Part shown: positions 11,450-16,536 of the stretch, one piece after another | Position numbering within the stretch: the stretch's first letter is position 1 | Layout: every line of letters begins with the position of its first letter | IMG/VR virus record: IMGVR_UViG_3300023215_001926 | Span: 1 to 36,411 of that record | Origin: a virus | Strand: one strand, 5' to 3' | DNA length: 36,411 bases | Translations under genes and position numbers: made by a program | Notes under the pieces: generated by a model | What the model was told of the DNA's origin: nothing | The model's input: only the letters and a program-made list of their open reading frames with translations | Database searches by the model: none

Positions 11450-11834
11450 AATAACAGCAGGTGACGTTTTCAATAATTGGACAGTACTAAACGAAGACCG
11501 CCGCAACCGAGGGGCGCAGCATTTTATGTGTAAATGCGTATGCGGCACCACTCGCGTAGTGCGCAAAGATAATTTAGGTCATGTCCAGGGCTGCGGTTGC
11601 GAGCGAAAAGAATATAAATTTCGCACCGGCCAAATAAAAACAACAGCAAAACCAAGCACTAAAAAGGCGCGAATTGTTTCACCAAAAACAGTAAGCGCAC
11701 CGGCCAAAATGCCGCACCACGAAAACCAAGAGCCGCGCCAGCAATACCAGCAGCGCAGCAAGTCAAAGCGCGAACTGCTAGAAGAGCGCTTAATGCAAAT
11801 GCAGTTAGAAAAAGAATTAAGCGAATTATGGTGA
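11436..11834 (+). CDS. Zinc-knuckle protein of phage type
   Basis: This 132-residue protein has ribosome site AGGAG before ATG 11436. Seen: N-terminal GDVFNNWTVLNEDRRN, then CKCVCG (33-38) and GCGCE (53-57). This is the pattern found at the N-terminus of many phage DNA-binding and HNH-associated proteins ('G...vl......C.CdCG......L..G...SCGC'). The middle is basic, Lys/Thr/Pro-rich and probably disordered. The end is a charged helix (KRELLEERLMQMQLEKELSELW). No nuclease domain follows, so it is probably a small nucleic-acid-binding protein. It is the last gene of the early operon before the structured leader and terminator. Confidence 0.6.
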   Translation: MATGKITAGDVFNNWTVLNEDRRNRGAQHFMCKCVCGTTRVVRKDNLGHVQGCGCERKEYKFRTGQIKTTAKPSTKKARIVSPKTVSAPAKMPHHENQEPRQQYQQRSKSKRELLEERLMQMQLEKELSELW

Positions 11835-11837
11835 TCA

Positions 11838-12026
11838 ATGAAACCAAACGTTAAACGTCGCAACTGGGTGTACCACTCAGTTGTTAACTATAGTAAAAAG
11901 GCACTGGCAAAATCCAGTGCCGGGATTCGAACCCCGCAATTAACAAAGGTGCATTGTCACCAGCTTTTTAGCTGGTTTTTTAATGCGCGCGCTTTAGCAC
12001 ACCCATATTATGGTGAGCTGGAGTGA
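11838..12026 (+). CDS. Possible Icd/Ash-like leader ORF through the RNA region
   Basis: Sixty-two codons are open from ATG 11838, four bases after the previous stop. The reading passes through hairpins and contains SSAGIRTPQL, which is simply the translation of the GGGATTCGAACCCC element. Known: in P1/P7 a small icd reading frame sits in front of the antirepressor and is the target of c4 RNA, and Ash/Icd-like frames recur in prophages at such sites. The ribosome site here is weak, so this may be a translated leader or just an open frame over a non-coding RNA target. Confidence 0.3.
   Translation: MKPNVKRRNWVYHSVVNYSKKALAKSSAGIRTPQLTKVHCHQLFSWFFNARALAHPYYGELE
11959..11981 (+). terminator. Rho-independent terminator/attenuator before the c4-like RNA
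   Basis: ACCAGCT (11959-11965) / AGCTGGT (11970-11976) with a TTTT loop is followed by six T. It would end the early operon, or attenuate read-through into the KilA-N gene. It lies between the upstream TTCGAA element (11918-11936) and the hairpin cluster. Confidence 0.7.
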
Positions 12027-12112
12027 GGCCACTTCGGTGGGCCGTTTCTTTGTTTGCGGTAGTTCGAACCTCGCTTTAGCTTGCCACCCAAAAATTCGAA
12101 CTTTTGAGTGGC
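11996..12112 (+). ncRNA. Candidate c4-like antisense RNA upstream of the KilA-N gene
   Basis: Three hairpins follow each other. The first is AGC-a-CACC (11996-12003) / GGTG-a-GCT (12012-12019). The second is GGCCAC-TTCG-GTGGGCC (12027-12043) with a UUCG loop and a following T-rich stretch. The third is GCCAC..CAAAA (12083-12093) / TTTTG..GTGGC (12102-12112) whose loop exposes ATTCGAAC. Between them is GCGGTAGTTCGAACC. An upstream element at 11918-11936 (ending TTCGAACCCCGC) can pair with GCGG..GTTCGAA as 4+7 bp across a small internal loop. Known: P1/P7 c4 RNA, and the related IsrK, control antirepressor genes by such pairing with target sites in the same transcript. The assignment is by analogy. 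Confidence 0.5.
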
Positions 12113-12144
12113 TTAAATGCATATACAAAACAAAGGTTCTTATT

Positions 12145-12774
12145 ATGAATAACCAACTTATTATTTCAAACACCCTAATTCCTGTTGATCATTACAACCG
12201 TGTAAACCTGAACGCATTGCATAAAGCCAGTGGACTTCAAAAGCATAAAGCACCTAATCAATGGTTAAGGCTAGAAGGGACAAATGAGCTAATTAATGAG
12301 CTAACCGCAGATCTGCAGTTAGCTAACCAAGGTGTAAATTTACCCTTAGACCTAGAACCAATGCATTCGGTTCGTGGTGGAAAGTCACCGGGCACATTCG
12401 CCCACGAACTATTAGCCATATCTTACGCAGGGTGGATCAGCCCTAAATTTCAATTAGAAGTAAACCGCGTATTTTTACACAGCAAACGCAACGAACCAGA
12501 GCTTGCCACTTTGCCAACCCTAAGCGAATTACCAATATTAGACTTTCCTGAAATGCGCTTAAGTATGTTCATCCCGTTTAGAGACATGTTTGATTGCGGC
12601 TGGCGCTTACGTATGAACCAGTTATTTACCATATTGCGCCAGTGCCAACGCAGCAACACACCTATAAGCGTTAAAGACGTGACAGGCCTAGAGCAAGAAT
12701 TGCGCTCACTGCTTCACATAGTCGAAACCCAAGGTAACAAACTAAGCAGCATTCAGCGGTTTGTGAATCATTAA
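12145..12774 (+). CDS. KilA-N domain protein, antirepressor-type
   Basis: The start is ATG at 12145, after AAAGGTTC; the same frame is open upstream to 12010, through the RNA structures. The product has 209 residues. Seen: a KilA-N DNA-binding domain at about 15-115, with VNLNALHKASGLQKHKAPNQWLR, then GGKSPGTFAHELLAISYAGWISPKFQLEVNRVF. The latter is the family signature. The C-terminal region is helical (LSMFIPFRDMFDCGWRLRMNQLF) and may be a partner-binding domain. Known: KilA-N proteins in P1 and many phages act as antirepressors, growth inhibitors or transcription regulators. A structured leader in front suggests translational control, probably keeping it off in the lysogen. A hairpin terminator follows. 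Confidence 0.8.
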   Translation: MNNQLIISNTLIPVDHYNRVNLNALHKASGLQKHKAPNQWLRLEGTNELINELTADLQLANQGVNLPLDLEPMHSVRGGKSPGTFAHELLAISYAGWISPKFQLEVNRVFLHSKRNEPELATLPTLSELPILDFPEMRLSMFIPFRDMFDCGWRLRMNQLFTILRQCQRSNTPISVKDVTGLEQELRSLLHIVETQGNKLSSIQRFVNH

Positions 12775-12789: not shown

Positions 12790-12816
12790 AAGGGCGCTAA
12801 ATGCGCCCTTAGTTTT
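12790..12816 (+). terminator. Rho-independent terminator after the KilA-N gene
   Basis: AAGGGCGC (12790-12797) / GCGCCCTT (12803-12810) with loop TAAAT is followed by AGTTTT. It lies 16 bp after the stop. It isolates the KilA-N unit from the membrane-protein gene. Confidence 0.8.
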
Positions 12817-12919
12817 ATATGTTAAAATAATCGAAACAAACTTTAAAAAACAGAATAATTAAATTAGCTTGTACAGCTAAGTTAATAAACACAAGATTAT
12901 ATAAAAGGTGGAAAATATA

Positions 12920-13699
12920 TTGGATTTAATTAAAAGTGCATACCAAAAAATTGAGTCTGTGCTTATTAAAGTTTATTTAATAGCTTTCAAAATAGTATTC
13001 TTAGCCCTTTTACTATTTTCTTGCTACTTCATTTTCCTGATTATTACTTCTAAGGAATCTGAGATTTCAGCCTTGTCTGCACTCGGTAGTTTTCTTGGGG
13101 GTGTATCTGCTTTGTTCGCTTTGTCTTTTGCTTTTTATGAATATCTAAAATATAAAAGAAATTCTGTAACTCGAACAAAGAGAATGCAGCTTTATACAGT
13201 CGACTTACCGTTGTTTATTGAATCTTACGAGCTAATGATAGCTCACATAATAAGTTCTGGTTCAAGTGAAACTGAAAGATTCAGACGCGATGTAATGAGC
13301 TATTGGACTGAACTTGCCAAACAAAGAGCAAAAATTCTTACAGAGTTAGAAGGAGTAAGCTTTACTGATGAGCGTTACAGTAAAATATTATTAGAAGGTA
13401 AAACAGTAATTACCCACTGTGAACTAGAAGTAAACTTACTCAGTAATAATGTTGGTAATATATCTAGAGTAAATGTAGGGAAAAATGAAAGTTTACTTTA
13501 TGAATTATTTAAAAAAACAGGGTTAGTAAAAGTAAATATAGAGAAATTAAACCGATTATTCGAAATACAGCATGATTTTTATAAGCTTAAGAAGGCAGGG
13601 CTTAGCAACTTCGATGAATACAACAAGTGTTGTCTGAAAATTACTTCTGAGAGCTTGAAAGCCTTAAATAATTTAAAATCAGATCTAAGGGATAGTTAA
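12920..13699 (+). CDS. Membrane protein of unknown family (accessory gene)
   Basis: The best start is TTG at 12920, eight bases after a full-strength ribosome site AAGGTGG; the in-frame GTG at 12908 overlaps that site. This gives about 259 residues. Two hydrophobic segments lie near residues 17-45 and 55-76 (IVFLALLLFSCYFIFLII; SALGSFLGGVSALFALSFAF). A basic stretch EYLKYKRNS follows, then a ~180-residue helical cytoplasmic domain rich in Lys, Glu and Ser. The gene is visibly AT-richer than its neighbours and stands alone between two terminator/convergent boundaries, which fits a recently acquired moron. The layout resembles the DUF4760-like gene at 1763. A role in superinfection exclusion or phage defence is possible but unproven. 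Its 3' end overlaps the convergent ogr gene by 15 bp. Confidence 0.6.
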   Translation: MDLIKSAYQKIESVLIKVYLIAFKIVFLALLLFSCYFIFLIITSKESEISALSALGSFLGGVSALFALSFAFYEYLKYKRNSVTRTKRMQLYTVDLPLFIESYELMIAHIISSGSSETERFRRDVMSYWTELAKQRAKILTELEGVSFTDERYSKILLEGKTVITHCELEVNLLSNNVGNISRVNVGKNESLLYELFKKTGLVKVNIEKLNRLFEIQHDFYKLKKAGLSNFDEYNKCCLKITSESLKALNNLKSDLRDS

Positions 13700-15636: not shown

Positions 15637-16536
15637 GCGTCATCCTTGGGTGTTGGGTTAAGGTCTGAATATTCAGGCTCTTTAAATTCAATACGCTGCG
15701 CTGCAGGTAAATAATTGTTTATACCTAATACATCTTGCTGCAGTGGCACCACTTCATTGTTGTAATAGGCGCGGGTAATTTTATCTAAATCACCAAAGCC
15801 AGCACTATCACCAGACGACTGGCCGCTTAGCGCTTCTTGCGCACGGTGCATGCTCAGCATATCGTTAAGCGTAATTTTTTTAATGCGTTCAAATTCGTCT
15901 TTAGTTGATATGTCACCCACAGGGGTAATCTTTATCGACTTTTCAGCATCGGCCTTATTACTGCGGAAATTAAAAAACAAACTTCTAAAATTACCCACGC
16001 CTTTGCTATCGCGTATGGCATTCTTTAGTGCTGTTTCATCGGCATCACTTAAGTTCGGGTCGGCCATTGAGCTCCGTAATACTGCGGTATGCCGTAAATA
16101 CCTTGCGCTGGGTCATACTCTTTTACGTGAATAACTTCACCGGCATTAAAGTAAATAGGCTCATGGCTGCGATTACTTATTTGTGCATATACGCCGCGCG
16201 TATCGGTATAACGCATAGTCAGTGCAGGCAAATGGCGCAGCTTAATGACCTGCCCAAATGAGTTTTTAATAATCTGCAAATAGGCGTTAAAATCATGTTG
16301 CGCTTAAAGTAGAGAATGGGCCCGTGCTGGGCATTAACGCGCAGCAGCTTTACCAAACCTTGTAAACTTATTGGCGGTGCATAAATGCCGTAGCTATCAC
16401 TAAATACCCCAATGTAATCGGTTAGCCGGTTATCTAAACACGGCTCAGGATCGCCAAAGCTAAACGAATCGGTAACCGCTGTTCGTTGGTTATAGTTAGG
16501 CGCATGGCCGTTACTTACTTGTAATCGTGGTTTCAT
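15633..16536 (-). pseudogene. Q: Portal protein GpQ, broken by two internal deletions
   Basis: Three collinear fragments in three different frames cover the portal. The first, 16536 to about 16292, carries FSFGDPEPCLDN to LYFKRNM-type sequence. The second, about 16292 to 16070, carries NAYLQIIKNSFGQVIKLRH to YGIPQYYGA. The third, 16067 to 15633, carries MADPNLSDADETAL to VPLQQDVLGINNYL. At both joints, family-conserved residues are missing, about 20-25 codons each: the segment after KRN, and the LFRRRYY segment before MADPN. The span is 904 nt, against about 1030 for P2 Q. Known: the portal is a dodecameric ring needed for DNA packaging. No single frame could make it, so the prophage should be head-defective. 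The start overlaps the terminase stop (TAATG). Confidence 0.88.

Follow-up and report, generated by a model that had tools for sequence, protein, structure and literature searches.

An isrK-C4-KilA-N cassette with covarying antisense words in a marine P2-like phage

The sequence analysed here (the window; 36,411 nt, positions 1 to 36,411 of IMG/VR record IMGVR_UViG_3300023215_001926) is that of a marine P2-type phage, for which the gene A protein, Ogr and the terminase were found by domain and PHROG searches. The stretch from gene A to ogr is variable, and in it 310 bp separate a stop codon at 11834 from the ATG of a KilA-N gene at 12145 (12145-12774, + strand). The 209-aa product matched PF04383 (5e-19; 68.5 bits against a cut-off of 23.8) and PHROG 129 (transcriptional regulator), and is a probable antirepressor. 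A low-confidence structure model of this protein still retrieved KilA-N proteins, and a search against solved structures gave no useful match. The gene is followed by a terminator-like hairpin (12790-12815, + strand, terminator scan). The layout of open reading frames and the terminator scan bore out an earlier note on this DNA, made from the sequence alone, which had described the 310 bp as a gene-poor leader with hairpins and a terminator. The first hairpin occupies 11901-11920, the second has ATTCGAAC exposed in the loop, and six T residues follow the terminator hairpin at 11959-11976.

Two known RNA families (Rfam; Weinberg et al. 2010, PMC2864571) were recognised in the leader, both on the + strand. 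The isrK covariance model (RF01394) matched 11901-11981 with 68.6 bits (cut-off 50), an IsrK-like RNA that ends in the intrinsic terminator (11959-11981), and the C4 model (RF01695) matched 12006-12091, 3' of this terminator, with 58.4 bits (cut-off 45). No other match in the Rfam scan of the window was above threshold. Hfq binding forms part of the name that Rfam gives to the IsrK family. By analogy with the P1 annotation and the match of the model to P1, the mature C4 would span approximately 12012-12088 (77 nt). The proposal of a c4/IsrK-like antisense RNA in front of a KilA-N gene in a P2-type phage was thus upheld. Of the two Rfam models that the earlier note had suggested scanning, the C4 model gave a match and the c4-a1b1 model (RF03163) did not, reaching 35.0 bits in the leader against a cut-off of 46.7 although the words discussed below are present. 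The isrK-C4-KilA-N cassette of the window is a real and well-supported addition to the known RNA families.

The promoter of the isrK segment is incomplete in the window, which keeps the -10 box TATAGT (11889-11894, + strand) and lacks the -35 box. Comparison with relatives showed an intact TTGACA-18-TATAGT promoter in the contigs L002, L003, L004 and L011. At the junction 11887/11888 the window lacks 69 bp that a contig identical at 100% elsewhere (L002/L166) retains, and this gap takes away TTGACA and the spacer. Over the 13 kb aligned with L166, the only differences were three losses of 69-85 bp in the window; the other two, of 85 bp (16071/16072) and 73 bp (16287-16289), split the portal gene, which is intact in L166. 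As there are only three losses over 13 kb and two of them break the portal gene, the gaps are probably assembly defects, a real deletion being the less probable reading. Promoter loss as a biological feature was therefore set aside, and the natural allele is taken to carry TTGACA-18-TATAGT.

The leader contains a set of short complementary words, which are named here as in P1: word a is the partner of the loop directly 3' of C4, and word b that of the ribosome binding site. The earlier note had pointed to two TTCGAA elements able to pair with each other; the pairing was found, and the number of copies proved to be three (11926, 12063 and 12095). Within C4, pattern search and covariation placed word b' (UCUUUGUUU, 12047-12055) in the loop of hairpin 2 and word a' (GUUCGAA) at 12062-12068. 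The downstream sense copies are a2 (UUCGAAC, 12095-12101), in a hairpin loop directly 3' of C4, and b2 (AAACAAAGG, 12128-12136), which includes the KilA-N Shine-Dalgarno sequence and ends 8 nt before the ATG. A second copy of the target is held by the upstream IsrK segment, where a1 (UUCGAAC, 11926-11932) is in the loop of the second hairpin and b1 (AACAAAGG, 11942-11949) lies in the linker, as located by pattern search and folding; a1 covaries with a' and b1 with b'. All six words are on the + strand. Word b' complements both b1 and b2, pairing with b2 over 9 bp across the Shine-Dalgarno sequence, and a' complements both a1 and a2, with 7-8 bp for a2. For the bipartite pattern TTCGAAC-N(5-35)-AACAAAG, three occurrences were counted in the 36.4 kb, compared with 0.02 expected by chance: two in sense (11926-11948 and 12095-12135, + strand) and one as the complement within C4 (12048-12068, - strand). 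None of 100 shuffles reached three such patterns, and no further C4 target with both words was found in the window.

The target of C4 is the KilA-N start itself, since the downstream sense copy b2 covers its Shine-Dalgarno sequence. There is no Icd frame between C4 and KilA-N. The 62-aa frame (11838-12026, + strand) that had been placed in the Icd position was rejected for this role: it is upstream of C4, and comparison with relatives showed that P2-like Pseudoalteromonas phages have a gene of ~31 aa, of which the N-terminal ~17 codons of the frame are what remains, the window having lost the tail. The intact counterpart, a MKPTVKRRNWVYHSVVKPKKQEKDQPRPKNR-type frame, is present in L002 and L003, and phages PY3, C5a and ACA1, which lack the cassette, have related frames. 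It had also been claimed that the KilA-N frame is open through the RNA, as in icd-ant overlaps. The frame from C4 (12010-12774) is indeed open into KilA-N in the window and in L004, but from the C4 AUG it runs into a stop after 23 codons in both L003 and L011, and after 28 codons in Vibrio phage PE001. A KilA-N protein with a C4-encoded N-terminus as a conserved fusion was rejected because of these early stops.

Altogether 63 C4 loci were collected, from phages and from genomes belonging to the same order; C4 was found in 83 of the 395 genomes sampled from the order. The Arsenophonus genome (G002, L012), that of an endosymbiont, contained at least nine C4 matches. In nearly all 63 loci the complement of the C4 loop sits a few bases 5' of a start codon, and the loci follow two layouts, with either a short Icd-like frame or a protein of 190-270 aa directly behind C4. 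Pfam searches on the proteins of the direct layout (18 loci) gave Rha in seven, Bro-N in five, KilA-N in four and AntA in one.

The words change together among these relatives. The earlier note had named the lack of a model match and of covariation in the pairing arms as grounds for refutation, and on both counts its reading survived. For the 63 loci, the pairing energy of C4 with the start region was -19.8 kcal/mol in native combinations compared with -13.8 in swapped ones, and that of C4 with the loop 3' of it was -14.0 compared with -9.1 kcal/mol; none of 5000 permutations was as good in either case. Complement runs of at least 7 were then counted in 49 distinct modules with IsrK hairpins (phage and prophage sequences, mostly viral contigs) and were present for b1 in 36, for b2 in 41, for a1 in 44 and for a2 in 45, compared with 5-11% in swapped combinations; these counts are conservative, as the automatic choice of words was misplaced in a few loci (e.g. 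L066b, L072b, L124 and L177). In the same 49 modules the words at all three sites changed jointly, to a degree that none of 5000 permutations equalled; the region of the row labelled 'control' in this test also contains the b1 word and so is not a valid control. The permutations preserve composition and not kinship, so the strength of the covariation is best judged in close pairs. Between the C4 RNAs of L003 and L011 there are 4 differences in 88 positions, all of them within words (one in b', three in a'), and the change in a' from UUCGAA to UCUCAA is matched by three-base changes in both a1 and a2.

Words a and b are freely combined: among 40 modules, 15 a-words and 30 b-words occurred in 38 combinations, and in 35 of the 40 both a2 and b2 were identical to the a1 and b1 words. 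One contig (L169, reverse strand, ~1531) has tandem modules, of which the first carries an a1 word, UUAGUAC, that mismatches its own a' word, GUCUCAA, as if by recombination or decay. As TTCGAA is self-complementary, the words might be taken for chance inverted repeats in an AT-rich leader. This explanation is refuted by the two Rfam matches above curated cut-offs together with the shuffles and permutations.

The cassette resembles the immI region (c4-icd-ant) of phages P1 and P7, of which P1 was compared. The P1 record annotates a1, b1, c4, a2 and b2 in the identical order, with a'/b' in C4, a1/b1 upstream and a2/b2 downstream at the start site, and the C4 model matches P1. According to this annotation, C4 blocks icd translation through pairing of a'/b' with a2/b2. 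The resemblance to P1/P7 c4 logic noted earlier thus applies to C4 and its target words and not to the Icd step: in P1, C4 blocks icd, which is required for ant, whereas C4 in the window is directed at KilA-N itself, as at Gifsy-1 anrP. The a1/b1 segment of P1 scores only 35 bits as isrK.

The isrK-orf45-anrP region of the Salmonella prophage Gifsy-1 matches the layout of the window, having a promoter, IsrK with a1/b1 and a terminator, C4, a2, and b2 over the Shine-Dalgarno sequence of the antirepressor-like gene, with no Icd. When scanned, it gave isrK, C4 and c4-a1b1 matches 5' of anrP. Word a was located here at 26-32, 158-164 and 192-198; the copies of word b are at ~41-47, 145-151 and 222-228, the last just 5' of the anrP ATG at 241. 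Gifsy-1 differs from the window in being a lambdoid prophage, with the region by antQ, in its antirepressor protein and in its words; in addition, orf45 overlaps the anrP start, and the window cassette has no such conserved frame. In Vibrio phage 10N.286.54.F9_PE001, as in further P2-like contigs, the same cassette as in the window lies between gene A and ogr; in PE001 a Rha protein replaces KilA-N and the words differ. The CI RNA of phage P4, with seqA/seqC, is likewise an antisense RNA that is cut out of its own leader and has target sites to either side (PMC4825925), but unlike C4 it works through transcription termination. In the literature searched, which left most subscription journals outside and is thus weak evidence of novelty, no paper linking IsrK to the antisense control of phage P1 was found, and only one brought together P2-like phages, KilA-N and antirepressors.

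These comparisons make it probable that the cassette is a switch in which C4 blocks KilA-N translation, IsrK relieves the block and KilA-N counters a lysogeny function. A single transcript from the isrK promoter would either end at the IsrK terminator as short IsrK or read through, and the read-through RNA would be processed to C4. The a' and b' words of C4 would then pair with a2 and with b2 at the KilA-N Shine-Dalgarno sequence, and translation would be blocked. The a1/b1 copies of IsrK would capture C4 and lift the block, and KilA-N, once made, would counter the phage repressor or another lysogeny function. The RNA families, the geometry of the words, the covariation of their three copies, the start codon aimed at and the promoter of the relatives are shown; transcription, processing, action in trans, the direction and strength of the control, and the antirepressor role of KilA-N are predictions of the model.

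Published work on Gifsy-1 (PMC4825925) bears directly on these predictions. IsrK supplied in trans lifts anrP translation more than 100-fold, and a processed RNA of ~80 nt, STnc1160, arises from the same segment. The published mutations G28A/G31A map to a1, and C159U/C162U to a'. With mutations in a', anrP expression rose from 4 units to 484-926; combined with the matching a1 mutation they left 224-327 units, still derepressed compared with 4; this residual expression fits a loss of a'-a2 pairing. Mutations in a1 alone, in cis, gave 93-218 units, and constitutively co-expressed orf45' RNA failed to counter IsrK. The latter two results are not predicted by a simple decoy model, and they make it likely that a cis element contributes to the switch. 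When the whole leader of the window was folded, a1/b1 were predicted to pair in cis with a'/b' with a probability near 1, which corresponds to the inactive structure A published for Gifsy-1. C4 may therefore need processing, or the control may be mainly in cis. The isrK promoter of the window, left with no -35 box, is a further point against the model.

The IsrK and C4 segments might even be nothing more than alternating arms of a cis-acting riboregulator, with KilA-N translation coupled to a short frame from the C4 AUG (12010), as has been proposed for Gifsy-1 orf45. Structures A and B and the orf45 coupling are published for Gifsy-1 (PMC4825925), and the cis pairing predicted in the window agrees with this. 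However, the frames from the C4 AUG in L003, L011 and PE001 end before the next start, the recurrence at a2/b2 of the words of a1/b1 is left unexplained, and the Gifsy-1 double mutants that restore a1-a' pairing (224 and 327 units) remain derepressed, the outcome to be expected with a2 as the target. An exclusively cis-acting element is therefore improbable, and the antisense switch, with a likely contribution in cis, is the preferred reading.

What KilA-N does once translated is less firmly indicated. The cassette also occurs in L003, L004, L011, PE001 and several further P2-like contigs, with the KilA-N protein 80-81% identical in L003, L004 and L011, and with Rha proteins at the cassette in PE001 and L031/L102. 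Phages PY3, C5a and ACA1 lack KilA-N and C4 and gave no isrK match above the cut-off, and ACA1 is 97% identical to the window across 2.8 kb of the gene A region despite the absent cassette. The four close KilA-N carriers all have the same type of CI repressor (72-100% identity), which was not found in the Rha-type P2-like phages searched, some of which are partial contigs. This co-occurrence fits an antirepressor-repressor pair, though it is confounded by kinship and small numbers.

With C4 control being real, KilA-N could instead be an accessory regulator in a cargo region, acting for example in superinfection or host takeover, with no antirepressor involved. The variability of the region and the three phages without the cassette are in keeping with this possibility, as are the genes annotated as PD-T4-9 A/B/C defence directly upstream of the Vibrio phage PE001 copy (L019, 2533-3803). 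The CI repressor of the window contains an S24 peptidase domain, and its SOS cleavage may need no help; PY3 has this CI type (78%) yet no KilA-N. Against it stand the CI type common to all four carriers and the membership of the proteins behind C4 in antirepressor-type families. An accessory role is a serious but lesser possibility, and the antirepressor reading is retained.

Within the KilA-N gene, the stretch 12234-12390 (residues ~31-78) is strongly diverged among the window, L003, L004 and L011. The DNA flanking it on both sides is 94-96% identical between the window and L004, which have RNA words in common and differ in this stretch; the pattern suggests the exchange of a specificity segment. 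C4-KilA-N cassettes in two different phages are adjoined by uncharacterised proteins whose N-termini contain hydrophobic segments (window, 12908-13699; L150, 1889-2566), and the protein from the window had no padloc, PHROG or confident Pfam match.

RNA control of the P1 and Gifsy-1 type thereby extends to marine P2-like phages, and comparison shows three copies of each word evolving together. The evidence is about evenly balanced on the broader proposal that a recombining two-word code sets antisense specificity across phage families, with IsrK as a target mimic that releases C4. If this is true, the Gifsy-1 STnc1160/orf45' RNA would be C4, and the merely partial rescue in the isrK/orf45 double mutants would reflect the unmatched a2 site. 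The cassette also joins the literatures on P1 c4 and on Salmonella IsrK, with simple, testable predictions on published mutants.
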